NCBI GenBank assembly: GCA_947466965.1
Contig: CANIFU010000020.1
Span: forward strand, 1-43,248
Reading direction: 5' to 3'
From: Bacteroidota bacterium
GTDB lineage: Bacteria; Bacteroidota; Bacteroidia; 2-12-FULL-35-15
DNA: 43,248 nt
Under the pieces are notes generated by a model. The model did no database searches. It worked only from the letters and a program-made list of their open reading frames with translations, and was not told the DNA's origin. A program made the position numbers and the translations under genes. This document shows, piece by piece, positions 6,162 to 22,993 of the stretch. Each line of letters opens with the position of its first letter. The first letter of the stretch is position 1.

Positions 6162-6224
6162 GAGTCTATTTTAAACTAAAAACGATTTACAAATCTAAAT
6201 TCGTAAATCGCTTTTAATTTTATG

Positions 6225-6298
6225 TCGGGACGGCAAGACTCGAACTTGCGACCTCCTGGTCCCAAACCAGGCGCGATAACCAACTACGCTACGCCCCG
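6225..6298 (-). tRNA. tRNA-Pro (anticodon TGG)
   Basis: Acceptor CGGGGCG/CGTCCCG (one G-U) with discriminator A; anticodon stem CCTGG/CCAGG around TTTGGGA; TpsiC loop GTTCGAGTC. It is separated from tRNA-Arg by 63 bases and shares its promoter and terminator. Confidence 0.97.
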
Positions 6299-6333
6299 AA
6301 CAATGATTATAAAGAACTTTTTATATGCGGATG

Positions 6334-6362
6334 CAAATGTACTATTATTTTTAATCTAACAA
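6334..6362 (-). promoter_or_regulatory. Promoter of the tRNA-Pro/tRNA-Arg unit
   Basis: On the minus strand TTG (6362-6360), 18 bp, then TACATTTG (6341-6334), an exact match to the Bacteroidota -33/-7 pattern TTG...TAnnTTTG. It is placed about 36 bp before the tRNA-Pro 5' end. Confidence 0.8.
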
Positions 6363-6717
6363 GCAAAAAAAAGATTTTTGTTATACGATTTATAGCTTTG
6401 GGACATCAACTTTTATCAGCGGACTGTAATTTACGAACAATAGAAAATCTACATCTAAAAATCACAATTTACTGATAAACAATAAGTTAAATAAAGAGTT
6501 GCTTGATTTTCACTTAATTTAAATTCATAATTTTTATCAAACAAATAGTTCTGAAATTTCCAAAATAATTAAAAATCCATAATTTTATTAAGCTATTATT
6601 TGGAAAATTTCACCCCCTCAGATGTCCCAATAAGATGTAATAAATTGAAATTAAGCTTAAAAATTCACGTTTATAAGTCTTCTACGTTATCTTCTATTAT
6701 CAACGGATTACACAAAA
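6363..6717. other. AT-rich gap at the start of the accessory region
   Basis: About 350 bases, very AT-rich. A frame at 6600-6824 (plus) is an accidental shadow of the next gene's 3' end. No tRNA fragment, transposase remnant or clear hairpin was seen. Confidence 0.45.
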
Positions 6718-7623
6718 TTATTTATAGGCTCTTAAATTCAACTCTTCATAATCATCTGTATTATATGATTTGTAGCCATAAAGCAGCGTGTCACTCTGTT
6801 TTTGTATCCACACATATTTACTAGGGCCAACTAAATTGAAATCGGAGTTCAGCAACCAATATTCTCCTTTATGATTTGTTGCTATATATAAATCAGGGGA
6901 TATGCAATCAGTTACTTGATAATGGGATGAAATATCCTTTTTATTTTTTAACAATGGTAAAAAATCACTTTTTAATCGATTGATCCAGTATCTACAATCT
7001 GTAAGAGTCCATTGATTTTTATCTAATCTTCTATTTAAAAAACCAATAATTTTTTCATCTACCTCAAAAGTCTTTAACTTAAGCCAATTATCAAATTCTT
7101 CCTGTCCATTTGATTTGGTCTTACATTCAATATACATTTCGCAGGTCAATAATTTATCAGCTATTATCTGCTGTTCCTCAATTGTAAGCGAATTGAATGT
7201 TATTTGATAATCAGGTAAAATCCAATCATAAACTTTCTTCAATAAATTTTGATCAGGCAAAAATAGTTTATTGGCATACTCTAATAACTGGTCCGTATAA
7301 ATGCCGTAATTACCTAAAGCGAATATAGAATATCCTGTCAGGAATTTTCCAGAATAATTTTTGTATTCAAATAGTAAACTTTTTATCCCGGACATTAATA
7401 CATTTGAATAGGATAATCTTTCAAGTACAGGAAGATTTGATGGTTCTGCACTGCGTATATTTGGTGATTTGTATTTTAAAAATGCATTTGACCCACCCTC
7501 TAAAAATTCGATCGAATAACCATTAGTACTCAACCCTGTAGGCTCTAAAACAATCGGGTGTACTATTTGAGAAAATGCATTTAGTGTTAACACAAACTGC
7601 ATTATAAAAATTGTTTTTTTCAT
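6718..7623 (-). CDS. Hypothetical exported protein
   Basis: I do not recognise this 301-residue protein. It begins with a Sec signal peptide (MKKTIFIMQFVLTLNAFSQ, cleavage probably after FSQ), so it is exported to the periplasm or outer membrane. The mature part has no Cys-based lipobox. It contains a central helical, Gln/Lys-rich stretch, a Trp-rich patch near residues 195-215 (KNQWTLTDCRYWINRL), and a C-terminal part that looks like beta strands (LYIATNHKGEYWLLNSDFNLVG). There is no T9SS sorting domain. The gene is alone on the minus strand with a 145-base gap to the next gene upstream. Confidence 0.7.
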   Translation of the reverse strand: MKKTIFIMQFVLTLNAFSQIVHPIVLEPTGLSTNGYSIEFLEGGSNAFLKYKSPNIRSAEPSNLPVLERLSYSNVLMSGIKSLLFEYKNYSGKFLTGYSIFALGNYGIYTDQLLEYANKLFLPDQNLLKKVYDWILPDYQITFNSLTIEEQQIIADKLLTCEMYIECKTKSNGQEEFDNWLKLKTFEVDEKIIGFLNRRLDKNQWTLTDCRYWINRLKSDFLPLLKNKKDISSHYQVTDCISPDLYIATNHKGEYWLLNSDFNLVGPSKYVWIQKQSDTLLYGYKSYNTDDYEELNLRAYK

Positions 7624-7768
7624 AAGATTTGGGGTTTATTGGTTTATATCGCTTTCTGCTGTTTTGTTTTATGTGATATTAATTGCTAAATCTTTCAAAT
7701 CGATTTTCTTTACTGCTGCTTTATTATTTACTATAATATGATTAGAAAGATCAATGTAAAATAAGAAA

Positions 7769-8344
7769 TCAAATTCTACTCCATTTGGCTTGAAGCCAAT
7801 CGTTAGTGCTTAAAATAGTTTTTACAACATTAATATTAGCAGCATTGTATGCTTCATTAGCGTTCATTCTTTCGCTATTAAACCCTAATTCTATAAGATT
7901 ATTGTTTTCTGAATGCAATACCCAAACTATTTCTTGTAATTTGAAGATCGAAAACACTTCCTGCTCTGTTTCGCTTTTACTAATTTTAACTATAAGTTCA
8001 TAAACCGTTTCTTTGTGTTCGTAAAAAAAACAATCGTTTTCCGCTGGATTTGATCTCATCATATATTCTTGCATTGCCCTTTTATCCTGTTCTTTGGCGC
8101 CAAATAGATTAATATTATACCTGGCGGCTAACTTTAATGCTGCAACACTTGCATCTGGAGCAATAAGATTAGAGGATGTTCTAATGCATCTGTCAATTAA
8201 ATGTTTCAGCATTGAAAGTTGTTTTTTAACTGATTTATCTTTCGAGTCCTTAAACTCAATTGAAATTCTTTTTCTTTCGATTTCTGCATAAAACGCTGGT
8301 TTTGCAAAAGAGCTTAGGTGATTTTTATTTGTTGTCATGAGCAT
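7769..8344 (-). CDS. Hypothetical cytoplasmic protein
   Basis: 191 residues, no signal peptide or membrane segment, mostly predicted helix with many charged residues. The N-terminal third (IERKRISIEFKDSKDKSVKKQLSMLKHLIDRC) is basic. I recognise no family. The second start MTTNKNH two codons in is equally likely. It is separated from its neighbours by 100 bases or more, so probably transcribed alone. Confidence 0.6.
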   Translation of the reverse strand: MLMTTNKNHLSSFAKPAFYAEIERKRISIEFKDSKDKSVKKQLSMLKHLIDRCIRTSSNLIAPDASVAALKLAARYNINLFGAKEQDKRAMQEYMMRSNPAENDCFFYEHKETVYELIVKISKSETEQEVFSIFKLQEIVWVLHSENNNLIELGFNSERMNANEAYNAANINVVKTILSTNDWLQAKWSRI

Positions 8345-8448
8345 CAGGATTAAATTGTTTATAAATACAAATTATGTTCTAATTACTTACTATAACGAAA
8401 TGATGTTCGTGAAAATACGAAGAATCATATTTTTTCAATTCAATCAAA

Positions 8449-9039
8449 TTATTCTTTCTGCTTATTTCCATTAATGTGTTTTATATGCTCTTCATACAAA
8501 TAATACAAGTGATTACAGAGCTTATTTTCATTTATGGCATCGTCAAAACTCATAATTGAATAGTAAATATCTCTTGCTTTATAATTGTCAGACAATCCTT
8601 TTATGATTCTTTTTATATCCTTTTCTTTTATTGCTTCTTTCATTATATCGGCCTCGGGGTCAACTTTTCTATCGAAATAACGCTGTTCTAAAAAGGGACC
8701 ATTTTTTTTTCGATAATAAACCTGAATATTTAAACCGTGCCGATTAAAAAACAGATCTACAATAAATCGCCTATTTTGTTGATCACAATTTTTACCAAAT
8801 AAAATATCATCATTCGGATAAAACACCTCTAACCTAAATCTTGTTTCCGTCCTTGCATAGATGGCTTCCTTATCCATAAGGAAATTTAATTTTTCTAATT
8901 TTGCTTGAATACCACTAAATTCATTCAGATATAGAACAAATTGGTTTAGGTAGGGGTCTAGAATATTATCGTTTAGGTATTTAAACCTTAACAATCCTTT
9001 GACAGCCATTTTTTTCCCAATATTTTCTTTCCAGTCCAT
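8449..9039 (-). CDS. Hypothetical cytoplasmic protein
   Basis: 196 residues with no recognised domain. Residues about 75-130 (RFRLEVFYPNDDILF, RRFIVDLFFNRHGLNIQVYYRKK) alternate like beta strands; the C-terminal 70 residues are helical and highly charged, ending HINGNKQKE. No signal peptide. It is divergent from the WYL regulator gene across a 209-base gap, so that gap should hold promoters for both. Whether it belongs functionally with the regulator cannot be told. Confidence 0.6.
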   Translation of the reverse strand: MDWKENIGKKMAVKGLLRFKYLNDNILDPYLNQFVLYLNEFSGIQAKLEKLNFLMDKEAIYARTETRFRLEVFYPNDDILFGKNCDQQNRRFIVDLFFNRHGLNIQVYYRKKNGPFLEQRYFDRKVDPEADIMKEAIKEKDIKRIIKGLSDNYKARDIYYSIMSFDDAINENKLCNHLYYLYEEHIKHINGNKQKE

Positions 9040-9175
9040 AACTTATTATTTTTACAATAGTACGTTCACATGTTTCAGGTTATTCGGAATATCACTTCAA
9101 TACAATTCAATCGTTTAACGATATAGTTAAATACAATTTCTAGTAATAAACAGTATATTACATTTTGGCGGGGCT

Positions 9176-9197
9176 AACTAAAACGTGTAAACTAAAA
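9176..9197 (+). promoter_or_regulatory. Direct repeat aactaaaa x2 upstream of the WYL regulator
   Basis: Two copies of aactaaaa (9176-9183 and 9190-9197) lie 14 bp apart, just over one helical turn, about 50 bp before the start codon. Near them is an imperfect -7-like tacattttg at 9159-9167. They are a candidate regulator-binding site only. Confidence 0.25.
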
Positions 9198-9248
9198 TAA
9201 AAGGATTAAATTGCATAAACTTTCATTTATTAATAAAAAAGCTATAAA

Positions 9249-10598
9249 ATGGATATTCTTGAAAAAATTCTAGGCGAAACTAGTATGCAGCGCTATGCAT
9301 TAGTTAAACTCTTTTTAGCAAACCCAACGAAATCATATTCAAGAAAAGAGGTGCAAGGTTGCATGCTGAATGAACCATATTCAACCTATTTAACGAATGA
9401 AAATACAGATGAACATGTTTGGGAAGCAGCAGCGGTTCCAACCTCACTAATTGAGCGGTTGGACGAATTAGTTAAGCGCGGAATTATCGAAATAATAATG
9501 CGTGATAAAAAAGAAAAACGTTATAAATTAAATAGACTTGATACAGAAAATTCAACTTTAAATAATGTAAAACTAAATCAAAGAGATTTAAATGACCTGG
9601 AATCTATAGAAAAGGCGTTTAGCAAATACGAACTACCTTTTACTCTATCAATTAAGAGGTTAGTTGACTTAAATAATGAAATAAACGAAGGCCATAATAA
9701 TGGAATTAGTTATGCGCATATTGATTTTGAAACACCTTTTATTAATGATCCAACAATTTTGGAAGTTACAGATGACATATATTATGCAATTAAAAATTGT
9801 AATCCAATATTAAATTTAAAATATAGCGGTCATTATAATTCCAATAGAGAACCTTTAAAACATAATTTAAAAATCTTTCATCCTTATATAATAAAAGAGT
9901 CGCGTGGTCAGTGGTATGTTGTTGGAAAGTGCCCTGATGAAAGCACCTTCAGGAATGTTCCTATTAATAGAATCCAAAATAAAGAACTTGACGTAAATGA
10001 AGATGAAACTTTTATTCGCGAAACATTTGATGCTTCAACTTATTGGGATGGCTGTGTAAGTATAACTAAAATAGGGCAACCTGTAAATATATCATTCCAT
10101 TTAAAAAATGGCGAAATCTATAATAATGTGGATTATTTAAAAGCTACCCCTATTATAAAAAAAGGGCAAACCATAAAACCTCTAAATGCTGTATGGTATG
10201 AGGTGAAGCTCAAAAATATTTACATGGGCCCAGAACTCGTGCGTATCATCAGGTCGTTAGGATTAGAAAACATAAAAAATGTAAGCCCAAAATGGTTACA
10301 TGAGGATTTGTTTGAAACCGGTGAACGCAAGCAATTTATTTTCAGCGTTCAATTACCTGCCACTATTAACAGGAAAGCATTCGAAACTGAAATGATTTCT
10401 GAATTAAGATTAAACAAAGGGAACGACAATGCTTCCGCAAAATATTCTATAAAGGATATACCGAACAAAAAAGGTTGGCTAAAAGTTACATTAGATAACA
10501 TTTTGATTAATTCAATATTATCTACTTTCATCTTAAAAACCATTAAAAACATAGGGGGGAAAAACTATACTACCAAAATGAATACCGTCTTAAATTAA
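9249..10598 (+). CDS. WYL-domain transcriptional regulator
   Basis: 449 residues. Residues 1-95 look like a winged helix-turn-helix (KLFLANPTKSYSRKEVQ, then LIERLDELVKRGIIEIIMRDKKEKRYKL as recognition helix and wing). About 180-255 is a WYL domain: YYAIKNCNPILNLKY, HPYIIKESRGQWYVVGKC (W222-Y223, with V in place of L) and FRNVPINRI. After it comes a WCX-like extension to about 350 and an extra C-terminal part. WYL proteins are mostly ligand-responsive DNA-binding regulators, thought to sense nucleotides, and often sit beside defence or NAD/ADP-ribose-processing genes. The NADAR gene 109 bases downstream fits this. The ligand is unknown. Confidence 0.8.
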   Translation: MDILEKILGETSMQRYALVKLFLANPTKSYSRKEVQGCMLNEPYSTYLTNENTDEHVWEAAAVPTSLIERLDELVKRGIIEIIMRDKKEKRYKLNRLDTENSTLNNVKLNQRDLNDLESIEKAFSKYELPFTLSIKRLVDLNNEINEGHNNGISYAHIDFETPFINDPTILEVTDDIYYAIKNCNPILNLKYSGHYNSNREPLKHNLKIFHPYIIKESRGQWYVVGKCPDESTFRNVPINRIQNKELDVNEDETFIRETFDASTYWDGCVSITKIGQPVNISFHLKNGEIYNNVDYLKATPIIKKGQTIKPLNAVWYEVKLKNIYMGPELVRIIRSLGLENIKNVSPKWLHEDLFETGERKQFIFSVQLPATINRKAFETEMISELRLNKGNDNASAKYSIKDIPNKKGWLKVTLDNILINSILSTFILKTIKNIGGKNYTTKMNTVLN

Positions 10599-10641
10599 GA
10601 ACTTTATAAAGTTTTAGGAAATACAATTGGGTAGGTTATAA

Positions 10642-10670
10642 ATCATGTTTTGGATAAACCGAAACATGAT
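10642..10670 (+). promoter_or_regulatory. 12-bp inverted repeat (candidate operator) before the NADAR gene
   Basis: atcatgttttgg and ccgaaacatgat pair over 12 bp (one G-T) with a 5-base spacer. There is no T-run after it, so it is not a simple terminator. It overlaps the -33 region (TTTTG at 10648-10652) and ends just before a -7-like TAATCTTG, which is where a repressor would bind. Confidence 0.5.
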
Positions 10671-10674
10671 AGTG

Positions 10675-10682
10675 TAATCTTG
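10675..10682 (+). promoter_or_regulatory. -7-like element of the NADAR gene
   Basis: TAATCTTG differs at one base from TAnnTTTG and lies 26 bases before the ATG at 10708, 4 bases after the inverted repeat. Confidence 0.4.
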
Positions 10683-10707
10683 CATCTAAATCCTAAAACA
10701 TATAGCT

Positions 10708-11172
10708 ATGATAAAATTCACAAAAGTAAGTTTACCTTTCGGATGGTTATGCAATATGGCTCCATTTCCTGTTATGTATAATGAAAAAAAATGGTTAACA
10801 ATTGAAGCCCTTTTTCAGGCATTGAGATTTGAGGATGAAAAAATAATTGAAGAAATCAGGTTAGAAAAAAGTCCTATGGGTGCAAAAATGAAGGCGAAAA
10901 AACATAAATTATTATATGTTGTTGAGCCAATGTCAGAAAAAGATTTGGAAAATATGAGAATGTGCGTAAGATTAAAATTAGAGCAGCATCCAAGATTGGT
11001 TGGGCAGCTTTTAGCTACTAATGATCAATTAATTTGTGAAGATATTGGAAAAAGAAATGGAGAAAGACACAAGTTCTGGGGTGCAAAGGAGATAAATGGT
11101 GTGTGGGAAGGTAAAAATATGATGGGTGTAATTTGGATGGAATTGCGAACACAGTTAAGAAAACCAATTTAA
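10708..11172 (+). CDS. NADAR-family (YbiA-like) protein
   Basis: 154 residues, the normal size of the family. Diagnostic motifs are GWLCNMAPFP near the N-terminus, W-TIEALFQALRF, SPMGAKMKAKKH, MRMCVRLKLEQHP, a C-terminal FWGA and NMMGVIWMELR. NADAR proteins bind or hydrolyse N-glycosidic bonds of ADP-ribose-like compounds; characterised members cleave riboflavin-pathway intermediates, or remove ADP-ribose from guanine in DNA as partners of DarT-type toxins. No DarT-like gene is seen in this window, so the substrate is open. The upstream WYL regulator and the inverted repeat over its promoter suggest it is induced by a nucleotide-type signal. Confidence 0.85.
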   Translation: MIKFTKVSLPFGWLCNMAPFPVMYNEKKWLTIEALFQALRFEDEKIIEEIRLEKSPMGAKMKAKKHKLLYVVEPMSEKDLENMRMCVRLKLEQHPRLVGQLLATNDQLICEDIGKRNGERHKFWGAKEINGVWEGKNMMGVIWMELRTQLRKPI

Positions 11173-11270
11173 TGAATTAACAAATTATTAAAACAATCAT
11201 TGAAGCCATTTTTGGTCATATTCCGAATTTAACGAATATTTCCGTCGTATCCTTGTTTTAAAGAGTAAAT

Positions 11271-11296
11271 ACAATATAGTATTACAATATAGTATT
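11271..11296. repeat. Perfect 13-bp tandem repeat
   Basis: acaatatagtatt occurs twice in direct succession in the gap between the NADAR gene and the next secreted protein. Two copies are too few for more than a note; it may be part of a promoter. Confidence 0.6.
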
Positions 11297-11377
11297 ATTG
11301 AATAACATTAAGCAAGATATACTATGGCATCCCTTAAATTCGATGGCGAAACACTTGAAGAAGTTTTTATCTAGTAC

Positions 11378-11405
11378 CTAAATTTAAACATTATGAAAAA
11401 GTTAA
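11378..11405 (+). repeat. 28-bp leader/start repeat, copy 1
   Basis: The 15 bases before the ATG and the first 13 coding bases match copy 2 at 11905-11932 at 27 of 28 positions. The shared part includes aacattatgaaaaagtt. The coding sequences diverge after MKKL. Confidence 0.7.
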
Positions 11406-11842
11406 GCATTCTCGCCATCTTTTCAGTATTTGTAATTAGTGTAGCAAGTTCACAAACTAGAAAAAATTTCTATTCTGTAACTCTTGACACGATTCAGCAT
11501 ATTAATTGGCCACCGCATCAAACCATTGAGCAGGCACAACGTAATAATACTCTTGAATATCCATTTTACTGGACTGATCGGGTGGTTTGGGAATACGATT
11601 TAATTAATAAGACTGCAACATGGAAGGGTGGATCAAATACTCAAATTTACAAAATCTATAGTGCGGTCAACTATAATGGAGTTTTGACATTAACGGTAGG
11701 TGACTCGGTTCAAGTTGGATGGACTGTTCAAATTAAAAATCAGCCTGACGGCACTATTCTTTTTACATCTAAAAATGTTGAATTAGTAGATGGAAAGTCG
11801 GATGGATCTTTTTCAAAAAATGTAGTTGTTATTTCTAAATAA
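11393..11842 (+). CDS. Hypothetical exported protein
   Basis: 149 residues with a clear signal peptide (MKKLSILAIFSVFVISVASSQ). The mature part is short and beta-rich, with a Trp cluster (INWPPHQT, FYWTDRVVWEYD, TATWKG) and a repeated hydrophobic alternation ending SKNVVVISK. I recognise no family; lipocalin-like or immunoglobulin-like folds are possible but unsupported. Its leader and first codons are nearly identical to those of the next gene, 77 bases downstream. Confidence 0.65.
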   Translation: MKKLSILAIFSVFVISVASSQTRKNFYSVTLDTIQHINWPPHQTIEQAQRNNTLEYPFYWTDRVVWEYDLINKTATWKGGSNTQIYKIYSAVNYNGVLTLTVGDSVQVGWTVQIKNQPDGTILFTSKNVELVDGKSDGSFSKNVVVISK

Positions 11843-11904
11843 ACTACAAAACGGCAAAAATAAAAAAGAGGACAAATTTGTGTGTTATATCTATAACAAA
11901 CAAT

Positions 11905-11932
11905 CTAAATTTCAACATTATGAAAAAGTTAA
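11905..11932 (+). repeat. 28-bp leader/start repeat, copy 2
   Basis: Matches 11378-11405 at 27 of 28 positions, spanning the same position relative to the ATG of the second secreted protein. Confidence 0.7.
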
Positions 11933-12369
11933 TCTTCACCCTAATCGCAATCACAATCGTTTTAACTGCAATTGGACAATGTGAAACTAGAAAATATATT
12001 TCAATTGCTAAAAAAGTGTTTGATCATAAACTTTCTTCTTCTGATTTTTCAAATGAAATTCTTTTTCTAACAATAGACACAATAGATGCTTCGAACCCGA
12101 ACCAAAATTCAGAATATAGGGAGTATACTTCTTCAAAAAATATGATTGCTGAATTTTATTATACTTTTGATTTTCTAAAAAAAGAAGGAAGTTTCTTTAA
12201 TTATTATGAATTTATAAATTATTCATTATATCCTAGCCCTTTGCACCAAGGATTTTTGGTAAATACAAAAACTGATACTTATAAAATAGATATTTGGAAT
12301 AATAAAGAAAATATATTTAAAATAGACGGATTGACAATCCAAAAATTAGAGCAAAAAATAAAAAATTAA
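11920..12369 (+). CDS. Hypothetical exported protein
   Basis: 149 residues from the ATG at 11920, which places a signal peptide (MKKLIFTLIAITIVLTAIGQ) at the N-terminus; the longer frame from 11878 would put 14 non-hydrophobic residues before it and is rejected. The mature part begins CETRK and is rich in Tyr, Phe, Asn and Ser (EFYYTFDFLKKEGSFFNYYEF). No family recognised. The very low GC and the copied leader make it look like a recently acquired or shuffled gene. Confidence 0.6.
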   Translation: MKKLIFTLIAITIVLTAIGQCETRKYISIAKKVFDHKLSSSDFSNEILFLTIDTIDASNPNQNSEYREYTSSKNMIAEFYYTFDFLKKEGSFFNYYEFINYSLYPSPLHQGFLVNTKTDTYKIDIWNNKENIFKIDGLTIQKLEQKIKN

Positions 12370-12784
12370 GTTTATTGAAAAAGAACATTTTGAAAGACAA
12401 ATAATACCAACGGCTAAGTAATAATATGATTATTTAACTCTAATTGACGAGTTAAAAATATAGGTTTTTTTTACTATCTTTAAATATTAAATTAAAGACA
12501 AAAGCGCATAATGCTTGGGATTCGTAATCAATAAATTGGATATGTTTTAAAATAGATTACATTTACTAAATTCTAGCGCCGTTTAAAATAATAAAAGCAA
12601 AAAATAAGTGAACGAAGGAAAACGCATAAAATATAATTTTTTAGAATCAAATTTGAACCTTTCCCTACCTTCGACTAATTCCGATATTTACAAAACCAGT
12701 TTCGTAAATATCTCAAAAAGACCGATAATACGCAACTCGTTTCTAAAGGGAATTTGAAGCACTAATTATAAAAAAATAAACTAC
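12370..12784. other. 415-base gap with a strong palindrome
   Basis: No gene is recognisable. At 12683-12712 there is a 9-bp perfect inverted repeat (gatatttac / gtaaatatc) with a further AAAC/GTTT pairing inside, which would form a long hairpin. No T-run follows on either strand, so it is not a plain terminator. An operator, RNA element or mobile-element end are possible. Confidence 0.45.
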
Positions 12785-13183
12785 ATGGAAGAAAAACAAA
12801 GACTGTACGATTCATTTGCTCAAAATTCAAGTATTCAACATCAAGAAATGTTATGTGGTCCTAAGCCATCACAAAGTGGCGGAAACGAGTTGTATTATAT
12901 TGAAAATTATGCACAGACTACAATATTAGATATTGGATGTGGGACAGGACACCGAACATTTCCAGAATATATTAAGAAAAACATTAAGTATTTTGGTGTC
13001 GAGAAATTTGAGAATCTAATAAATGCAAGTAGATATAAATCTCATATTATTAAAGGTGACTTATGTTCGGAAGATTTTATTTCTATACTTGAGGATCAAA
13101 ATTTAATAGTTGAGATTGGTAATAGTTTTGATTTAACTGTTTTATTTGGAGGTGTTGTAAATAGTTTTATTTCTAATGATTAA
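12785..13183 (+). CDS. Class I SAM-dependent methyltransferase, N-terminal part (gene interrupted by a stop codon)
   Basis: 132 residues. SAM-binding motif I is ILDIGCGTGHRT (about 49-60), followed by the acidic post-I position FGVEKFE and the motif DLTVLFGGVVNSF. The fold is cut short: a class I methyltransferase needs about 200 or more residues. The frame continues without a shift beyond the TAA at 13181-13183 for another 95 codons with the missing C-terminal strands, so a single nonsense change (for example CAA to TAA) has probably inactivated the gene. Target (small molecule, protein or nucleic acid) unknown. The rest is listed at 13184-13471. Confidence 0.75.
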   Translation: MEEKQRLYDSFAQNSSIQHQEMLCGPKPSQSGGNELYYIENYAQTTILDIGCGTGHRTFPEYIKKNIKYFGVEKFENLINASRYKSHIIKGDLCSEDFISILEDQNLIVEIGNSFDLTVLFGGVVNSFISND

Positions 13184-13471
13184 AGAAATATTGCATGGAA
13201 GAATATCTCCTTATTACTTCGTAAAAGTAGGTATATACTATTTGATTCTTTAACGCATTTTAATTGGTATAAGAATGACTTAGAAGGAAAAGCTGTTGAA
13301 TTAGAAATACCAGTCGAAATACCCCCTCAGTACTTTTATTCAAAACGTGAACTTGAAAAAATATTTTCCGAAAACGGAATTAAATTAATAGAAACAAAAT
13401 CTGAGAATATACCTGGGAATATACCTGGTGGGTTTGAAAGAACTCATTTCTTAATTAGTAATGATAAATAA
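13184..13471 (+). pseudogene. C-terminal part of the same methyltransferase, in frame after the stop
   Basis: Read in the same frame as 12785-13183, this gives RNIAWKNISLLLRKSRYILFDSL, then VEIPPQYFYSKRELEKIFSENGIKLIE and GGFERTHFLISNDK, which fits the end of a class I methyltransferase (late beta strands and the substrate-binding region). It lacks its own likely start. Together both parts would make a protein of 228 residues. Confidence 0.75.
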
Positions 13472-13680
13472 AAAAAAATTAAATTTGAAATATCAGAAAA
13501 ATGAATTAGTTTTAAATTAACAAAAAACACTCCTTAGTGAAAAGTTCAAATTACTTTGACGACATACAATGGCTAATTGATGATGTCATGCTAAAAATGA
13601 ATTATACGGGAGTGGAGTTTTTTTTAATTAATTTAAATTAAACAATTCTAATTATTTAAATTGTAAAAAACACAAACCTT

Positions 13681-14502
13681 ATGATAAATGTTATTAAGCT
13701 AAAATATTATATAGAAAATTTTTATGGATATGGCAATTGGGATTCTCCTTACTATTTTATTGGCATGGAGGAAGGAGGTGGAAGTGACTATAATTTAGTA
13801 AATGAAAAAATTGAAAATTATTATTATTTCGGGGTTGATAGAGGTAATAATTTTTTCATAAAAGAAAAACTTATAGATAATTATGGCTTTCAAATATTTA
13901 TGATGCCCGAAGCATTAAGAGAAATACAATTTTTCAGATTAAATCCGTTGCCAAATTTACAAAGCACATGGAAGCCATCAATTAAAATGTTAATGACCTA
14001 TAATGATTTAACTGTAAATGACGATGAAATGAGACTATTTCAACGATTACACTTTGGGTCTAACCAAACACCTTATAAGCACGCTTTAATTGATCTATTG
14101 CCATTACCCAGCCCAGGTTTAAAAGATTGGAATTACAGACAATGGGTTGATAATGCTAATGGAATATTTTTAGATACAAGAGATAATTATAGAAATAACT
14201 ATATAGGATTAAGAATTAAGCATATTTGCAAAAAAATTAGTGACAATAAACCAAAATTAGTTGTGTTTTATGGTACTGGCTATATAAATTATTATAATCA
14301 AATAATAAATTGCATTAATAATAGTTTAAATTTTATAGATTTAGAAATAAATACTCCTAATGATACTGGTAGAGCAAAGTATTCAATTCAAAAGTGGGAT
14401 AATTCAAGTACTGTTTTTATTATTTGCAGTCATCCTACTTCTACAGGGTTAACAAATGAATTTTGGATTAATTTAATACAACAAATTGGAAACATAATGT
14501 AA
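13681..14502 (+). CDS. Possible uracil-DNA-glycosylase-fold protein (unassigned)
   Basis: 273 residues, no signal peptide. Three blocks recall the UDG superfamily: an N-terminal YYFIGMEEGGGSD where UDGs have the motif G-E-x-P-G, a central ALIDLLPLPSPG, then PKLVVFYGTG and VFIICSHPTSTGLTNEFW where UDGs have the strand ending in H-P-S. The order and spacing fit the fold, but overall similarity is low and substrate residues cannot be assigned. The gene follows the broken methyltransferase by about 200 bases and is not clearly in an operon. The alternative is an unrelated alpha/beta protein. Confidence 0.5.
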   Translation: MINVIKLKYYIENFYGYGNWDSPYYFIGMEEGGGSDYNLVNEKIENYYYFGVDRGNNFFIKEKLIDNYGFQIFMMPEALREIQFFRLNPLPNLQSTWKPSIKMLMTYNDLTVNDDEMRLFQRLHFGSNQTPYKHALIDLLPLPSPGLKDWNYRQWVDNANGIFLDTRDNYRNNYIGLRIKHICKKISDNKPKLVVFYGTGYINYYNQIINCINNSLNFIDLEINTPNDTGRAKYSIQKWDNSSTVFIICSHPTSTGLTNEFWINLIQQIGNIM

Positions 14503-14593
14503 TAAAAATATGATTTTGAAATTAATAATGCATAATACAATTATGAATCGACTCGGTTGCATTTAGTAAATTACAACAAATCATTATTATTTC

Positions 14594-15247
14594 CTATTTC
14601 ACCTCGATACCGCCCTTGTAATTTGTATTTTTTACGACCTTTCCATTAATGTCATATTCTATCCATTCTCCATTCTTCTTTCCATCAACATAACTACCTT
14701 GTAATTCTATATAGCCATTTGCCGAATAGAAAACCCAATCTCCACTTTTATTGCCATCTGCATAACTTCCTTTTCCAAACACTTTTCTATCGATACTTTC
14801 CAAAAATTCAATCCATTCTCCACTCTCCTTCCCATTACCAAATTCACCTTTTGATTCTATTTGTCCCTCAGCAAAGGCACTATATATAATCCATTCTCCT
14901 TCCTGTTTCCCATCGACATAACTACCTTTTTTACGCGGTATTGAAAGATCATCGTATAAAACCCACTCTCCATTCTTCACTCCATTGACATAAGTACATT
15001 TTGATTCCAGAAAGTTAAATGCATAATAGGTAATCCACTCGCCATTTTTTTTACGATTAACGTAATTACCTTCACTCGCGACATGTAATTCTTCAAATTG
15101 ATCAGGCAGTTCAAGGTATTCAATCTGATATCCATTTTTCTCGCCATTGACATATCTGCCTTTTGATTTTATTTGCCCGTTTTCATAATTTTCTCGGATC
15201 ATCCCTTTTTTAGAGAAATATTTTCCACTTGAGTCTTTCCAGTTCAT
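14594..15247 (-). CDS. MORN-repeat (YwqK-like) protein
   Basis: 217 residues made of about eight MORN-2 type repeats, each near 23 residues, with the signature G-x-Y-x-x-G-K-K-N-G-E-W (for example GSYVDGKKNGEWIEY, CTYVNGVKNGEWVLY, GSYADGNKSGDWVFY). No signal peptide and no catalytic domain. Proteins of this kind are annotated as YwqK family, sometimes as immunity or antitoxin proteins, because YwqK lies in a B. subtilis toxin locus; in general the repeats are protein- or lipid-binding scaffolds. It begins MNWKDSSGK, loosely like MDWKENIGK of the hypothetical protein at 8449-9039. No toxin gene is visible beside it. Confidence 0.8.
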   Translation of the reverse strand: MNWKDSSGKYFSKKGMIRENYENGQIKSKGRYVNGEKNGYQIEYLELPDQFEELHVASEGNYVNRKKNGEWITYYAFNFLESKCTYVNGVKNGEWVLYDDLSIPRKKGSYVDGKQEGEWIIYSAFAEGQIESKGEFGNGKESGEWIEFLESIDRKVFGKGSYADGNKSGDWVFYSANGYIELQGSYVDGKKNGEWIEYDINGKVVKNTNYKGGIEVK

Positions 15248-15290
15248 AGTTTTATTTTTTTAGTAAAAATTTAAATAATAAATTAGACTA

Positions 15291-15413
15291 TTAAAATTCA
15301 GTTACTTCTTGCATTCGAGGTTTAAATAAAGCGTGATAAACATTATCATCAATTCCCTTTTCAGAAATTATTTTTTCAACCCCCATGCCTATTTTATTAG
15401 TACAACCGCCGTG
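15291..15413 (-). pseudogene. Displaced 3' end of the gene at 15397-15732
   Basis: On the minus strand, a +1 shift (loss of one A) at the A8 tract 15414-15421 continues the frame for 40 more residues, from HGGCTNKIGMGVEKI to PRMQEVTEF and a TAA at 15291. Without the shift the upstream gene ends in the unlikely tail TRRLY. The tract could be a mutation, a sequencing error or programmed slippage. Confidence 0.55.
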
Positions 15414-15732
15414 TTTTTTTTAACTCGTTAATTATATTTAAACACAACAGACACTTTTCGTATGCTTCTAACTTTTCATAGATATAGATCGCATTCTCAA
15501 GACCGCTAATATATTTAGAGCGGCTTAGATTGATATTATACTCAATATTATTAAGTATAATGCTAATTATTTTGATTTCATGAATTGACGCGTCTTTATA
15601 TTTCGCACTTATTGCGTCTACTACGTTATCATAAATAGTAATTTGATGAAGATTAACAATTTCTTCAAGTGTAATATCGCCATAGAATTTAAATTCGTCT
15701 GACTTTTCCTTCGAATTTTCTTTTCTTTTCAT
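15397..15732 (-). CDS. Hypothetical protein, probably truncated by a frameshift
   Basis: 111 residues as read, starting with a charged tail MKRKENSKEKSDEF and then a helical domain (ITLEEIVNLHQ, IISIILNNIEYNINLSR, YISGLENAIYIYEKLEAYEKCLLCLNIINELKK). The last part resembles a tetratricopeptide-like helix pair. Family unknown. The final five residues come after a run of eight A and are likely out of frame; corrected, the protein would be about 147 residues. Confidence 0.6.
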   Translation of the reverse strand: MKRKENSKEKSDEFKFYGDITLEEIVNLHQITIYDNVVDAISAKYKDASIHEIKIISIILNNIEYNINLSRSKYISGLENAIYIYEKLEAYEKCLLCLNIINELKKTRRLY

Positions 15733-16402
15733 AATGGTAGGTTTTAGATTGTTAGTGAATTTGATTCAATTGTACCAGAAATAATTATTTCCATTAGTTC
15801 TGCTTTATTTTTGTGATTATGCTACTTGTTTAGAAATATGTACTCAAGAAAAATTATTTCCACAATTATTTTATAAAACCGGAATCACGTTGATTTTACT
15901 CTTCATCCTCTAATAAGTATGAAGACTCAAGACGTCAAAGAACGCGCACATTAATTTTTAGTCAATGTGTTGGTTTGAACTTTACAGCAAAGCATACGAT
16001 TCGTTTATGCATTGCAATTAAGCCATTCAATATTTATTGATTAGTGATAACTGAATAGATAATTAGGAAAAAAATCTTAATAGATAAATGATAAAAAGAA
16101 ACAAATATTCAATAGAAATTAAACACATTTCTCTTACTATAAGCTGATCATGACTTACAGATAAAAAATAAGAAATTATTATCTACTAATTTTATTGCAT
16201 GCGAAGTTAATATACAATGTTTCGGATTTTTCGTAGAACCGAAAAATAACTAATCAATGTTTTAATAAAATATTTTATAGGGAATTAAATATGAGGCAAA
16301 CATAAATAGTAAATTTCATTTTACCAAATCCTGGCAAAAATAATTTTCTAATCAGCTATTTTTTAAAAAAATGATGAGGCAAAATATAAATAACAAAAAA
16401 GG
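15733..16402. other. 670-base gap without a gene
   Basis: The longest non-coding stretch in the accessory region. Short frames in both directions encode nothing I can name. At its right end are two related segments about 24 bases long (16291-16313 and 16373-16396), both starting atgaggcaaa. Confidence 0.45.
16291..16396. repeat. Imperfect direct repeat, two copies 82 bp apart
   Basis: atgaggcaaacataaatag at 16291 and atgaggcaaaatataaata at 16373 agree at most positions. They lie just downstream of the 20-residue-repeat gene. Function unknown. Confidence 0.4.
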
Positions 16403-16882
16403 TTAATAGGTATATTTTACAGTATGCCAAATAGCAACAAGTTCTTCAATTGTTACATAACCATCAATTGTGAATAGAATATCGCTCGAATATGTTGAAT
16501 TGCCTTTATACACTTTTCCATCCAAAATTGTTGCAAGCACATCACTGCTATAATTGGATGTGCCCTTATAAATTTTCCCCTCCTTAATAGTCCATAAAAT
16601 GTCACTACTATAGGTGGAGTTCCCGGAAAACACCTTACCATCGGTAATTGTGTAAATCACATCGCTAGAATAAGTGCTCTGCAGTTTGTATAGTTTAGTA
16701 TCTTTTATGTTCAAAAGGATCTCTGAAGAGTAAGTTGACGTTTTTTTATACACTTTTCCTTCTTTTAAATTGCAAATTATGTCGCTGCTATACGTTGATG
16801 TTCCTTTATATACTTTCGTTTGCGCTACCATTATAGTAACACAGGAAAGAATAAATATTCCTATAAATCCTATTTTTTTCAT
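16403..16882 (-). CDS. Secreted protein of six tandem 20-residue repeats
   Basis: 159 residues: a signal peptide (MKKIGFIGIFILSCVTIMVAQ), then six consecutive repeats of exactly 20 residues with the pattern K-V-Y-K-G-x-S-T-Y-S-S-D-I-L-x-T-I-x-x-G, then a 17-residue cap ending HTVKYTY. The regular Tyr/Ser/hydrophobic alternation suggests a beta-solenoid or beta-sheet stack; there is no enzymatic motif. Its ATG overlaps the stop of the gene upstream (ATGA), so the two are translationally coupled. The role may be structural or adhesive at the cell surface. It lacks a T9SS domain. Confidence 0.75.
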   Translation of the reverse strand: MKKIGFIGIFILSCVTIMVAQTKVYKGTSTYSSDIICNLKEGKVYKKTSTYSSEILLNIKDTKLYKLQSTYSSDVIYTITDGKVFSGNSTYSSDILWTIKEGKIYKGTSNYSSDVLATILDGKVYKGNSTYSSDILFTIDGYVTIEELVAIWHTVKYTY

Positions 16883-17418
16883 TTTCGAGCTTTTATCAGT
16901 GTTTTAAAATCCAAATCTTTTGGTATGGGCATTAATGTTTTATTTTCAATTAGTTTATCAATTAAATCAAATGGGAATTTTTTTAGTCTTGAATTAGTTC
17001 CTATGGACTCTCCCAAAAATCTCTCCAATAACGGCAACGTTTGAATATATCTTAATAATTCATCCGACATGTCACCCCAGTCATCATCAAGAAAGTACTT
17101 TTTATTTATTTTATAGTCTTGCAAATCAAAAGCGCGAAGACTGTCGAATAAAAAACCTTGCGGAGGAATAAATAAATCTTTTTTACCATAGGCACTAATG
17201 TAAATATCAAAATACTGATTATCAGTTGTCATTATTTCATAATGATCAATAGGTTTTGAATTTTGTGTAACAAGGGAACCTTTTCTATGAAACAGAATAT
17301 GAAATTTATTAGTTGAAACAAGTGACCTCATAAAATCTAATGATGCAGGTATACTGCTTACAATTACGGGAGATTCTCTAGAAAAGCCATATAATTTGTT
17401 ATTTTTTTTAGTTGCCAT
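16879..17418 (-). CDS. Hypothetical protein coupled to the repeat protein
   Basis: 179 residues with no signal peptide. The first half looks beta-rich (NKFHILFHRKGS, IDHYEIMTTDNQYFDIYISAYGKKD, IPPQGFLFDSLRAFDL); the second half is helical and acidic to basic, ending FKTLIKARK. I recognise no family. It overlaps the next gene by four bases, and starts 48 bases after the 739-residue protein, so the three may be one operon. Its cytoplasmic nature beside a secreted partner is notable. Confidence 0.6.
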   Translation of the reverse strand: MATKKNNKLYGFSRESPVIVSSIPASLDFMRSLVSTNKFHILFHRKGSLVTQNSKPIDHYEIMTTDNQYFDIYISAYGKKDLFIPPQGFLFDSLRAFDLQDYKINKKYFLDDDWGDMSDELLRYIQTLPLLERFLGESIGTNSRLKKFPFDLIDKLIENKTLMPIPKDLDFKTLIKARK

Positions 17419-17466
17419 TATTTATGGTATAAGATTATTTTTCTGAGCAATTGATGAATTGCACAA

Positions 17467-19686
17467 TTAATAAAAAACGCCATTTCGTAATTCTGTCATC
17501 TTAAATAATTTTAACGAATCAGCAAAATTATAATGTTCAATTGTATAAAATATATTTTGTGTTTTTATTGCATGGTCGATGTAATACTCGTAAGAGTTCG
17601 CGGTTATCTTAATACTTTTAGATTTATTGATTATTTCAATTGCTTTTAAAAGTTTTAACCAATTCTCATTTTTGGAAGATGCAATAATTATAGCTAATTG
17701 AAACGCAGGTATTGCTTTCATCCTATCTGATGCTTTTTCCCAAATTTGATTAATATTTTTAGGATTCTTCTGCATACTTAGAATTAGAGCATCCATAATA
17801 TTTTTGTTTTTTAATGCAGCGTATGAAATATACACACGTTTTTGGGGATTCCATTGTCCCCCCCCTACTTCAATCCATAGTTTCCATGGCTCATCAATTA
17901 ATAACGCTGACCAGCTTATTATATAATTTTCTAATAATTTTAAATTGTATCTTAAATATTTAGGTACTCCTTTTTGCTGTGTTAAAAGCCATGGTTTTCC
18001 CTTAATTTTTTCAATCCAAACCTCCAAATTTTCTTCAGAATTGCATTCGGCATTAAAAAGTGATTTTATTTCTTCTTTTAAATTGGCAGGTGATGCAAAT
18101 ATAAAAGTTGGATTATTCAAACACGCCTCTATCCATGCTTGTTCCTTGATTTGGTTAAAAGAAGCATGTTTTTTTAATGTCTCTCCAAAAATAGCATTTG
18201 AAAAGTCTGATGAATCGTTAGAAAGAATTAAATTAACAGCTCTTTTTATTGCTATTTCATATGGTTCATTTTCAACTTCTGTAATAACATTTTCTAGTTT
18301 AAACTTATTTGACCTTTCCTTTAGGCTTGATGCCCTTCTTTTAAGCATCTTGTCAACACTTTCTGGGAAATGATTAATTAAGGCCTCCTTAAAACTAGTT
18401 GCTTCTTTTACAAACTCAGGTAATAATGATATTTCTTCCAAAATCAGGTCATCATCTTCAACCTTTCTCACCCACCCATTTAAGCATACTTCATTAATTT
18501 CTGAATCATTTTTTAATTTTAAGACAGATAATACTTCATTGTAATATATAGGATTTAACTCTATTAATTTTATCAAGACAGTTTTATTTAATTCAATAGA
18601 AAGCTTTTCGAGTATTTCAGGCAATGAAAAAAGACCCAAAAGTGATATTATCTGATAAGGCTGATCTGTAATCTCTATATTTTTTCTAACTTTTAATGGC
18701 ACATTTAAAATTGAGAGAGGAAATAGTTCAACTCTTTTTTGCCACCATAAATAATCTTTATTTTCCATATAAACAGAGTCTGAAAAAACATTATTCTCAC
18801 CATTCAATTCCATGTAATCTGTAAATAACTGAATATCAGAAAGCCAATTAACTGGACGCATATTAAATGTTCCTACGCATTCAAGTATTTGTTTATTCTT
18901 GTTTATTCGCAATGCGACTTCTGGCTTAGAGTTATCAAATAAAATATAAAATATATTATTTTCATCTATATAGTGCTTAGCCATTTTTATTGATGCGATA
19001 CACCAACCAGAACCTTGGCAGGCTGAACTTAACTTTAATGGATCATCGAAAAATACCCAACCATTTATAAATTTATATCCAGAGCCGATACGCTTTTTAT
19101 TATAATAGGATTTTGCAATGTTTATATTAGGATCAAACTTGCTTTTAGATATTATAGCGTTCAACCATTTAATTGTTTTATTGCAAGGTTCTGCTAAGGC
19201 TAGTCTATGACCTTTCCCATTTTTTTCAAACAATGGCTTTAATAATAAGTAAATAAATGCAGGATTTTTTTTGTAACTACTATTCAGTTTATCGATCCAC
19301 GTTTTAAATTGGACTGATTTTCGTTGATTTAAGAACTTTAAAAGTAATTGCAATGCTTTATCATCTCCCAATTCGATGGATTTCCTTTCTAGCAAATAGA
19401 CTTGATCAGAAGATAAATCGTAATTATTATTAATAGCCAAATCAAGATTTACATTATTCTCGGTAACAAAATAATGTTTTTTTATTTCCGAATTAAAGGG
19501 GTATTGTGCTGATTCGTAAAGGTTCTTAAGCAAGACGTCCTTAACAAAATTTTGAAGAGTTCGTTCGTCTATTACAATGGTTTGCCAAAGAATTTCGCTT
19601 TCATATTTACATACTAATAAAACTAAAAAAGGATCATTAATATTAAATTTAGTTAGTTTTGTGGGCAGTCTATAATTCAAATTCAT
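17467..19686 (-). CDS. Large hypothetical protein with a GWCIA motif
   Basis: 739 residues, no signal peptide, no membrane segment. The N-terminal 200 residues are helical. Around 225-290 is the only motif-like block, SACQGSGWCIASIKMAKHYI followed by FYILFDNSKPEVALRINKNKQILECVGTFNMRPVNW. This recalls the W-C-T/I-A plus beta-strand module found in some PcfJ-like and phage-encoded proteins, but I cannot call it a member. The remaining 430 residues are helical repeats. The last codons read ELRNGVFY and lie inside a 22-bp sequence repeated at 22741. It seems part of a minus-strand cluster of unknown genes. Confidence 0.6.
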   Translation of the reverse strand: MNLNYRLPTKLTKFNINDPFLVLLVCKYESEILWQTIVIDERTLQNFVKDVLLKNLYESAQYPFNSEIKKHYFVTENNVNLDLAINNNYDLSSDQVYLLERKSIELGDDKALQLLLKFLNQRKSVQFKTWIDKLNSSYKKNPAFIYLLLKPLFEKNGKGHRLALAEPCNKTIKWLNAIISKSKFDPNINIAKSYYNKKRIGSGYKFINGWVFFDDPLKLSSACQGSGWCIASIKMAKHYIDENNIFYILFDNSKPEVALRINKNKQILECVGTFNMRPVNWLSDIQLFTDYMELNGENNVFSDSVYMENKDYLWWQKRVELFPLSILNVPLKVRKNIEITDQPYQIISLLGLFSLPEILEKLSIELNKTVLIKLIELNPIYYNEVLSVLKLKNDSEINEVCLNGWVRKVEDDDLILEEISLLPEFVKEATSFKEALINHFPESVDKMLKRRASSLKERSNKFKLENVITEVENEPYEIAIKRAVNLILSNDSSDFSNAIFGETLKKHASFNQIKEQAWIEACLNNPTFIFASPANLKEEIKSLFNAECNSEENLEVWIEKIKGKPWLLTQQKGVPKYLRYNLKLLENYIISWSALLIDEPWKLWIEVGGGQWNPQKRVYISYAALKNKNIMDALILSMQKNPKNINQIWEKASDRMKAIPAFQLAIIIASSKNENWLKLLKAIEIINKSKSIKITANSYEYYIDHAIKTQNIFYTIEHYNFADSLKLFKMTELRNGVFY
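17472..17493. repeat. 22-bp direct repeat, copy 1
   Basis: Core acgccatttcgtaatt, preceded by A6 and followed by c. Identical over 22 bases to 22741-22762. This copy covers the last codons of the 739-residue gene. Confidence 0.8.
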
Positions 19687-19771
19687 TGTATTTAATTATA
19701 TTTAAATATAAAATTATCTAAAATTAAATGATCGCCAAAATTCATATTGCCTATTTAATATATAATATATT

Positions 19772-20722
19772 TTAAATAATAACTTTATAAAAAGTTTTTT
19801 TGTCTCCTTCAGGTCTGTGAATTTGATGCCAATTAAATTCTTTAATTTTTTTGAGTTTATTAGGAATAACATTAAAATCAACCTCGTCATTGATTGTTTG
19901 CAAATCTCCTATTCCATATTCAACCTGCAAGTTTCCTAAACATCTTGGCCCAGGGCCTGCCCATCCTCCCCAATGTGCAACATAATTAATTTTTAAATTT
20001 TCTCGAATTAACAATTTTTCAAAAGTCCAATCGTCACAGTCAATATAAAAACAATAAATATTGCTGTTGTTATTAGCCTTATGCTTCACTAAAGTTGCTC
20101 CAAATTGATAGTTCTCGATAAATTTTTCTTCTAATTGATTGTTTTTCTCTTTTAGTTTATCACTATTAATGGTCGGCTCCAGTACATCTAACACTGCTTT
20201 TGTTGTGAGATCGTCTGGATTTTCAAATATTTTATATAATTCATCCTTCACTTTACTCATCTCATCATACAACTCCTGAAAATTAATTTCATTAACAATA
20301 TTTGTTATTGATTGAGTATTACACCCTTCTTTAATAATTCCATCTTTTACAACCCAATGTACCTTTCGTTTGTATCTATCACTAAATTGATTAAATACAT
20401 TTTGTTTTAAAAAATGTTCAGGACCTTCGTTAAAACATACAAGTTCTGAATACATTTCACCTATTTTAAAATAATCATTTTGATCCATCTCTCGATAAAT
20501 TAATCTATCTACAATCTTTACATAATCAATATCCGTATAAAAAAATACTTTCACGGTCTCATCAATCAAAGCATCTGGATGTGATGAGTCGAAAAGTTCC
20601 ATTGGTCTTTTGTCTATTCCGGCAGAGCCATACCAGCATACTTTAAAATCTTGTTCATTAACCTCCTCCATAAAGTCTGAAGGTAGATTTTTAAATAGTT
20701 GTTGTAATTGATTACGTTTCAT
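19772..20722 (-). CDS. Hypothetical protein with WYGSAGIDKRP motif
   Basis: 316 residues, cytoplasmic. Near residues 30-45 is CWYGSAGIDKRPMELF, similar to a W/Y-Y-P-x-A-G-x-D-x-R-P motif that I have seen in unassigned bacterial proteins, followed by VKVFFYTDIDYV. The middle is helical with a charged coiled-coil stretch (DKLKEKNNQLEEKFIENYQFG). The C-terminal part has a glycine-rich GGWAGPGPRCLGN and ends IHRPEGDKKTFYKVII. No known function can be given. It lies 85 bases upstream of the 739-residue gene on the same strand. Confidence 0.6.
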   Translation of the reverse strand: MKRNQLQQLFKNLPSDFMEEVNEQDFKVCWYGSAGIDKRPMELFDSSHPDALIDETVKVFFYTDIDYVKIVDRLIYREMDQNDYFKIGEMYSELVCFNEGPEHFLKQNVFNQFSDRYKRKVHWVVKDGIIKEGCNTQSITNIVNEINFQELYDEMSKVKDELYKIFENPDDLTTKAVLDVLEPTINSDKLKEKNNQLEEKFIENYQFGATLVKHKANNNSNIYCFYIDCDDWTFEKLLIRENLKINYVAHWGGWAGPGPRCLGNLQVEYGIGDLQTINDEVDFNVIPNKLKKIKEFNWHQIHRPEGDKKTFYKVII

Positions 20723-20882
20723 CTTCTATAAATTAGGGTGAATAAAATAATACTATAAATATGCTGGAATTAAATAACAGAAATTGCAAATTCTTAAATA
20801 ATGGAGAATAATTTGCATCTAATCAAATATACAAAATTCTAATAAAATAAACATTTGTCGTGATTGTTCGATAATTGAACTA

Positions 20883-21155
20883 TTATTTTATTTTAATAAT
20901 AACTGCAATTACACAGCCGCTGCTATCTCTCTCTAAAAACAATCTTTTTTCATTGTAAGCTCTCTGTTTCTTCCAATTCCACTCAATAGTATCTCCGCTG
21001 CAAGTTGTATAGGGCATGTCGTTGGGTCGCTCAGGATGGTAGGGATCAATTGTTGGCTTATTTTCATTGTAGCAGGAGTTTAAAAATAGCGTTAGAACAA
21101 CAAGTAGTGTCGTTACACTAAGACTAATCTTACATTTTGGTTTTTTCGTTTTCAT
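20883..21155 (-). CDS. Small putative lipoprotein
   Basis: 90 residues with a basic N-terminus, a hydrophobic stretch (LSVTTLLVVLTLFLNSC) ending in a likely lipobox LNSC (Cys28), then a short polar domain rich in Pro, Asp and Trp (TIDPYHPERPNDMPY, DTIEWNWKKQRAYNEKR). It should be lipid-anchored in the membrane. It starts 12 bases after the stop of the gene upstream, so is probably cotranscribed. Confidence 0.65.
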   Translation of the reverse strand: MKTKKPKCKISLSVTTLLVVLTLFLNSCYNENKPTIDPYHPERPNDMPYTTCSGDTIEWNWKKQRAYNEKRLFLERDSSGCVIAVIIKIK

Positions 21156-21167
21156 TTTTATTAGGTT

Positions 21168-22563: not shown

Positions 22564-22578
22564 AAGCGTTTTTATTTA

Positions 22579-22586
22579 CAAATGTA
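22579..22586 (-). promoter_or_regulatory. -7 element for the unknown minus-strand cluster
   Basis: TACATTTG on the minus strand, identical to the -7 of both tRNA units in this window, 16 bases before the ATG at 22563. Confidence 0.6.
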
Positions 22587-22719
22587 TATTAGGAATATCC
22601 GATTTTTCAGTAGAATGATTTAAACTGAATTCGATGAGCATTACTGCTCAAAAAAAGGGACTATAATAGAGTGCCTTTAGTTTAAAGGCAGATTAAAACG
22701 ATCTGATATTTTAAGTTGA

Positions 22720-22965: not shown

Positions 22966-22989
22966 TCTTTTTTTCAAGCTAAGTCCCTT
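22954..22989 (-). terminator. Hairpin after tRNA-Ser
   Basis: aagggactta and taagtccctt form a 10-bp stem. On the minus strand it follows the tRNA-Ser 3' end by 4 bases and is followed by ctttattt, a modest T-run. Confidence 0.6.
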
Positions 22990-22993
22990 TCAG

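Follow-up and report, generated by a model that had tools for sequence, protein, structure and literature searches.

Most bacterial NADAR genes, to our knowledge, stand alone, without a known signal or target. In the stretch of DNA analysed here (hereafter the window, a 43-kb Bacteroidota-type contig from a host assembly of 3.1 Mb), such a gene follows that of a WYL-domain regulator, raising the question of whether the two form a regulated unit and, if they do, what the unit senses and what it acts upon. A compact, mobile NADAR gene with its own regulator and candidate operator would be a testable handle on the need for nucleic-acid ADP-ribose removal, and the pair would also be a handle on what WYL domains sense.

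A two-gene block on a tRNA-bounded island

The first-pass annotation of the window, made from the sequence, had reported a NADAR-family gene downstream of the WYL gene across a short gap. All coordinates and lengths proved exact, and the assignment agreed with Pfam (NADAR, 65.4 bits against a cut-off of 35.1, E = 9.9e-18). The features of the locus are collected in the table.

Features of the WYL–NADAR locus and its surroundings (window coordinates)
Feature	Position	Strand	Size and details	Basis
tRNA-Pro	6224–6298			
Genomic island	6299–22992		~16.7 kb, between tRNA-Pro and tRNA-Ser	
Shared block: WYL gene, hairpin, NADAR gene and small secreted-protein ORF	9166–11924	+		blastn against L010
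WYL-domain regulator gene	9249–10598	+	449 aa	Pfam and PADLOC profiles
Gap from WYL to NADAR gene	10599–10707		109 nt	
Extended nested stem-loop	10611–10698	+	88 nt; outer arms GTTTTAGGA (10611–10619) and TCCTAAAAC (10690–10698)	
Candidate operator: 12-5-12 inverted repeat, ATCATGTTTTGG-ATAAA-CCGAAACATGAT	10642–10670	.	11/12 pairs; 12/12 in L010	
-7-like element of the NADAR gene, TAATCTTG	10675–10682	+	one mismatch to TAnnTTTG	consensus match only
NADAR (YbiA-fold) ADP-ribosyl hydrolase candidate	10708–11172	+	154 aa, stand-alone domain	Pfam, AlphaFold
Small secreted-protein ORF, third gene of the shared block	11393–11842			
tRNA-Ser	22993–23082			

In two genomes of the same genus the tRNA-Pro and tRNA-Ser genes adjoin, being 90 and 276 nt apart (L117 1054–1463; L118 7682–8280). 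The window thus carries an island inserted between them, whose GC content is mostly 25–32% compared with ~35% in the flanks. Pfam recognised neither an integrase or transferase domain nor ARG (ADP-ribosylglycohydrolase) among the island proteins scanned, ARG, phosphatase and chaperone genes were likewise not recognised in the island, and no known partner effector was found in it. The earlier remark that no DarT toxin is near held for the island and neighbouring proteins scanned with Pfam, among which no domain of DarT or another ADP-ribosyltransferase was recognised.

Two sets of direct repeats occur on the island. One (11378–11405 and 11905–11932, 27/28 bp identical) covers the 5' ends of two adjacent ORFs, of which the first, if not both, has a signal-peptide-like start; the shared block ends inside the second. 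The other, of 36 nt (17458–17493 and 22727–22762, 86% identical, with AAAAAACGCCATTTCGTAATTC in common), flanks the right part of the island. A 739-aa protein encoded at 17467–19686 had no Pfam match; another genome encodes a 29% homologue (L044 10882–13110), and a NADAR gene ~3 kb away there belongs to the subfamily of the window's NADAR. An integron-type cassette was rejected as an explanation of the block, as its 5' edge, GGGGCTAAC, occurred once per locus and array repeats were not found.

Among 84,980 species genomes searched at the protein level, the only close relative of the WYL protein was on a contig of a MAG labelled Chryseobacterium gleum (L010). The shared block was 92.5% identical in DNA to this contig over 2759 nt (blastn), with both flanks unrelated, and the two genes with their gap (9249–11172) corresponded to L010 6001–7924. 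Protein identity was 88% for WYL and 98% for NADAR but only 80% for the conserved core protein Rho, indicating horizontal transfer of the block. Both genes were intact and under purifying selection (dN/dS 0.23 for WYL and 0.09 for NADAR), and the third ORF was disrupted in L010. This copy elsewhere, its perfect inverted repeat, the purifying selection and the broken third gene together make it probable that the regulator and enzyme genes move, and are retained, as one unit with the hairpin. The first-pass view of the pair as a unit is thus borne out by a near-identical block in an unrelated context, and also by the presence of both families within 5.7 kb of a third genome, G251. Synonymous divergence differed between the genes (0.26 for WYL, 0.088 for NADAR), so each half of the block may have its own history of exchange. 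Further proteins lie near the copies: related small proteins of unknown function near both, outside the block (window 7769–8344 and L010 2591–3106, 35%), and a protein ~3 kb from the second copy (L010 11155–11775) that is SLOG-like (nucleotide-sugar) by eye, with no Pfam match.

A neighbourhood search, suggested earlier as a check for conserved pairs, gave a divided answer. It found the L010 copy and the proximity of the two families in G251, where a single 5.7-kb contig (L047) carries two WYL homologues together with a NADAR of 50% identity. The WYL and NADAR genes on that contig are convergent and ~1.9 kb apart, an arrangement that supports a link between the families and not a conserved adjacent pair. 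The pair was, however, missing from all 35 further genomes searched in the genus, and in most cases a close relative of this NADAR had no adjoining WYL gene. None of six plasmid neighbourhoods (five from other phyla) had a WYL gene near NADAR, and no WYL homologue was found near phage NADARs.

The gap and its stem-loop

The first-pass annotation had placed a 12-bp inverted repeat in the gap, over a -33 region and just before a -7-like element, and had named it a candidate operator. The repeat is present, with arms at 10642–10653 and 10659–10670 and a 5-nt spacer, but its pairing is not perfect. An equal or better repeat arose in 16/5000 dinucleotide shuffles of the gap, and ~10 distinct repeats of comparable quality occur across the window, so the inverted repeat by itself is only moderately unusual. 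What had been overlooked is that the repeat forms the tip of an extended stem-loop, in which 9-bp outer arms enclose a middle stem. Its predicted RNA fold had an energy of −31.7 kcal/mol (z −5.64), with 0/200 shuffles as stable, and it ranked first of 1200 tiles over the window for stability at given GC (fold energy against GC). No other copy of the candidate operator was found in the 3.1-Mb assembly at up to 3 mismatches. It is the whole-gap fold, the perfect repeat in L010 and the single site in the assembly that lift the repeat above chance.

The gap is 97% identical in L010; its 109 nt carry 3 changes, where the NADAR dS of 0.088 would predict ~10. One change, T10651 to C, makes the repeat perfect, another is unpaired and the third breaks a pair of the middle stem. 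Thus the tip repeat, not the whole RNA fold, looks maintained.

The repeat directly precedes the -7-like element and overlaps the predicted NADAR promoter, so this part of the promoter claim stood, with one mismatch to the consensus; the element reads TATTCTTG in L010. The -33 part fared less well: the TTTG at 10649–10652, within the left repeat arm, is TTTC in L010, which leaves the -33 assignment weak. Overall, the gap resembles WYL-type operators, and the label of candidate operator seems apt. Other identities for the hairpin were rejected: it lacks the T run of a Rho-independent terminator, has no second genomic copy as a dispersed repeat or MITE would, and matches no known RNA family in Rfam. 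The operator pattern was not found in viral contigs. In another genome (G197, L042 2980–3004), a NADAR-like ORF is preceded by a repeat TATGTGCGA-ATAAA-CCGCACATA, which is divergent from an intact NADAR gene of 49% identity. The repeat has the 5-nt ATAAA spacer and an adjoining CCG in common with the window's site, a resemblance that is suggestive only.

The regulator and the enzyme

The regulator matched the Pfam WYL family narrowly (23.7 bits against a cut-off of 21.8, E = 4.7e-5) and the PADLOC WYL profile more strongly (E = 3.5e-15, residues 165–360). Homologues align to residue ~358, placing a WYL and putative WCX region at ~165–358. Residues 359–449 form a C-terminal extension of ~90 residues that is absent from the WYL homologues aligned here; profiles and alignment thus agree with the earlier description of a 449-residue protein with an extra C-terminal region. 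Residues 1 to ~100 are probably a winged HTH. No profile matched an HTH in this protein (Pfam and further profile searches), and the AlphaFold model, built from two sequences, had a helical N-terminus but an overall pLDDT of 35.6, which made it unusable, so it was left out of the fold search.

WYL homologues of this type were rare, occurring in 2/395 class genomes besides its own (G251 and G269) and in none of the phylum sample at 1e-12. No relatives were found in viral contigs or plasmids, and a phage record gave one match of 41% coverage. The homologue in G269 (L046) clusters with an HerA/PLD protein and a DolB-like AAA/M41 protein, a defence-like setting.

The NADAR protein was modelled with much higher confidence (pLDDT 96.7, 25 sequences). 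Its nearest solved structure by fold was E. coli YbiA (2B3W; Z 17.9, 2.0 A over 145 residues), and it superposed similarly on the ADP-ribose-bound NADAR of P. nicotianae (8BAU; Z 17.3, 2.4 A over 148). E33, K60, E111 and W124 were invariant among 25 aligned homologues and match E43, K75, E125 and W133 of 8BAU, by alignment and the active site described in PMC11543638. Both glutamates that correspond to the catalytic acids, E33 and E111, are present, and the phosphate-binding K50 is replaced by R40, an Arg that only one of the 25 aligned relatives lacks. E125 is the class-defining residue of the P. nicotianae enzyme (PMC11543638), and glutamate at E111 accordingly assigns our protein to the YbiA class and not to the DarT1-linked (Asp, D171 type) or gp30.3-type (His) NADARs. 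In the E. coli C7 NADAR, the K95R change, which matches R40 here, kept hydrolysis in vitro and lost DarT1 rescue (PMC11543638). NADARs strip ADP-ribose from guanine in DNA (PMC11543638) and in RNA (PMC11833690). On the strength of its sequence and model, the 154-aa protein is a candidate ADP-ribosyl hydrolase that may hydrolyse guanosine-ADP-ribose.

The nearest relatives of this NADAR were mostly in phage contigs, many of them >100 kb (31 IMG/VR loci, best 64% identity), and the subfamily was rare in the bacteria examined (10/395 phylum genomes at E 1e-15, only some of them close). In the NADAR subfamily represented by the large-phage loci L041 and L062–L088, Arg takes the place of an active-site Lys that is otherwise usually conserved, and Glu occupies the class position, for which phage NADARs were reported to have His. 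In one genome, three NADAR genes of this subfamily lie within 2.6 kb (L043 6588–9211), with unknown genes between and around them. A recurrent pair was also seen, in which the NADAR gene comes directly after that of an unknown protein of ~340–390 aa (L051, L095, L097, L098 and L099; plasmids H1, H8 and H16), in hosts from Bacteroidota, Vibrio, Klebsiella and Methylobacterium. This recurrent pair is possibly a system of the DS-32 type.

A possible switch, its alternatives and known systems

The WYL–NADAR unit is probably a module for repair or defence that can be switched. More specifically, and tentatively, we favour a mobile two-gene switch, in which a WYL dimer would bind the repeat at the stem-loop tip, overlapping the NADAR promoter, and hold NADAR low. 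A signal reaching the WYL domain, most likely nucleic acid from infection or DNA damage, would release the regulator and allow NADAR to be made. NADAR would then free guanine bases in DNA or RNA of ADP-ribose, or hydrolyse a related soluble N-glycoside, and so undo an attack by an outside ADP-ribosylating enzyme, whether from a mobile element, a phage or a competitor. The simplest target would be such an external attacker, given that the neighbourhood yielded no recognisable transferase, and a phage or toxin trigger is plausible. Some WYL proteins are activators; repression until a signal is bound is proposed by analogy with BrxR and CapW.

The earlier suggestion that regulator and enzyme answer to one molecule was not supported. 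Single-stranded DNA is the ligand of two characterised WYL proteins, PafBC and DriD (PMC11804915, PMC12340889), so nucleic acid is a likelier WYL signal than ADP-ribose. A WYL domain that senses ADP-ribosylated nucleotides or ADP-ribose, closing a loop in which nucleic-acid ADP-ribosylation induces its own eraser, is quite unlikely. If true, a WYL domain would for the first time have a direct ligand of the ADP-ribose type, and the pair would guard against imported ADP-ribosylating enzymes without needing a toxin partner.

The switch is favoured by the L010 copy, the dN/dS values, the slow-changing gap, a BrxR/CapW-like anatomy, the superposition on 8BAU and the presence of both families in L047, though both are rare; in addition, WYL/Nudix control of ADP-ribose-processing host systems has already been predicted (PMC9503650). 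Against it stand the lack of a WYL neighbour in most relatives of this NADAR, the spacing and convergence of the L047 genes, the Arg in place of the active-site Lys (K50/K95), the loss of the -33 TTTG in L010 and a winged HTH that no profile detects.

Four other explanations share parts of this evidence. NADAR might itself be an anti-phage effector, or part of one, silenced by WYL because it is costly and acting on a soluble NAD or ADP-ribose derivative instead of nucleic acid. WYL repressors do likewise for BREX and CBASS, systems with NADAR domains have been validated by DefensePredictor, and the WYL homologue of L046 sits among the HerA/PLD and DolB-like proteins. The best functional model for our protein is moreover the NCBIfam DS32_2 'NADAR family anti-phage protein', but its 92.6 bits fall far under the cut-off of 240, the ~340-aa partner gene of related pairs is missing and the island has no known partner effector, which makes this explanation rather unlikely. 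The structure of the gap raises a different possibility, that the stem-loop acts as RNA in the WYL-to-NADAR transcript, as an attenuator, processing site or stability hairpin to which the WYL protein does not bind. A strong fold over the whole gap, including outer arms that a dimer site would not need, fits such a role. Yet there is no terminator-like U tract and no Rfam family, the L010 changes improve the tip and break a middle-stem pair, so that RNA pairing is not clearly maintained, and the operator of Acinetobacter BrxR, with an extended stem-loop of the same kind, works as DNA (PMC9122589). We therefore regard an RNA role as improbable.

The two genes could also be independent island cargo, an orphan WYL acting elsewhere and a phage-derived NADAR brought together by chance. 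The abundance of NADAR relatives in phage contigs (the closest 64% identical) without WYL agrees with this, as does the difference in dS (0.26 and 0.088), which points to partly different histories of the two halves. Against chance association, the two genes and the gap are intact in both copies while a neighbouring ORF decayed, the hairpin is exactly at the predicted NADAR promoter and a third genome (L047) has both families close; we consider it unlikely. Least probable is a housekeeping N-glycosidase of the YbiA type that destroys riboflavin intermediates, with the regulator incidental. YbiA is the nearest solved fold and the riboflavin N-glycosidase model TIGR02464 gave 41.5 bits, but that misses its cut-off of 73.7, and the gene lies in a mobile island and is absent from the 35 genus genomes.

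The proposed switch has its closest regulatory parallels in BrxR of BREX and CapW of CBASS. The site bound by Acinetobacter BrxR is a 25-bp pseudo-palindrome (5-nt spacer, 9/10 matching) that forms the tip of a predicted stem-loop of ~70 bp overlapping the -35 (PMC9122589), and E. fergusonii BrxR binds an 11-5-11 repeat (PMC9122601). CapW represses CBASS through palindromes covering the -10, and CBASS expression rises upon phage infection in a CapW-dependent manner (PMC9122588). The likeness lies in a WYL regulator beside conflict-type genes on a mobile island, and in a pseudo-palindrome with a 5-nt spacer overlapping a predicted promoter, at the tip of an extended stem-loop as in Acinetobacter. 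Unlike those systems, the site here is between regulator and target gene instead of upstream of the regulator, the protein has ~90 additional C-terminal residues and the controlled gene would be a single hydrolase.

On the enzyme side, DarT1–NADAR (PMC11543638) and YarT–YbiA (PMC11125620) share the NADAR hydrolase fold and active-site acids with our protein, which differs in having no recognised transferase partner, Arg for the conserved Lys and no N-terminal extension; DarT1-linked NADARs also have Asp where ours has the YbiA-type Glu. The large-phage NADARs are 39–64% identical to it and share the Arg replacement and the stand-alone domain, but the phage gene is alone, with no WYL homologue found nearby. 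DS-32 (NF053876) likewise has a NADAR protein, and is the best match among curated functional models, but scores below its cut-off and has a partner gene that is absent here.

The nearest precedent for the whole arrangement is the set of ARG-centred, WYL/Nudix-regulated host systems against viral ADP-ribosylation, without a transferase, predicted by Burroughs and Aravind in 2022 (PMC9503650), in which NADAR is an occasional add-on; in our literature search for NADAR together with WYL, no other paper was found that puts both kinds of gene into the same systems. Both arrangements combine a WYL regulator with an ADP-ribose-removing enzyme and no transferase. In our locus, by contrast, NADAR is the only ADP-ribose enzyme, the host belongs to Bacteroidota, and ARG, phosphatase and chaperone are not recognised. 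Since the predicted systems centre on ARG, with NADAR as an extra, the pair described here is a minimal variant of the predicted kind and not a new kind, and would provide a minimal case of WYL-regulated ADP-ribose systems hitherto predicted only around another hydrolase.
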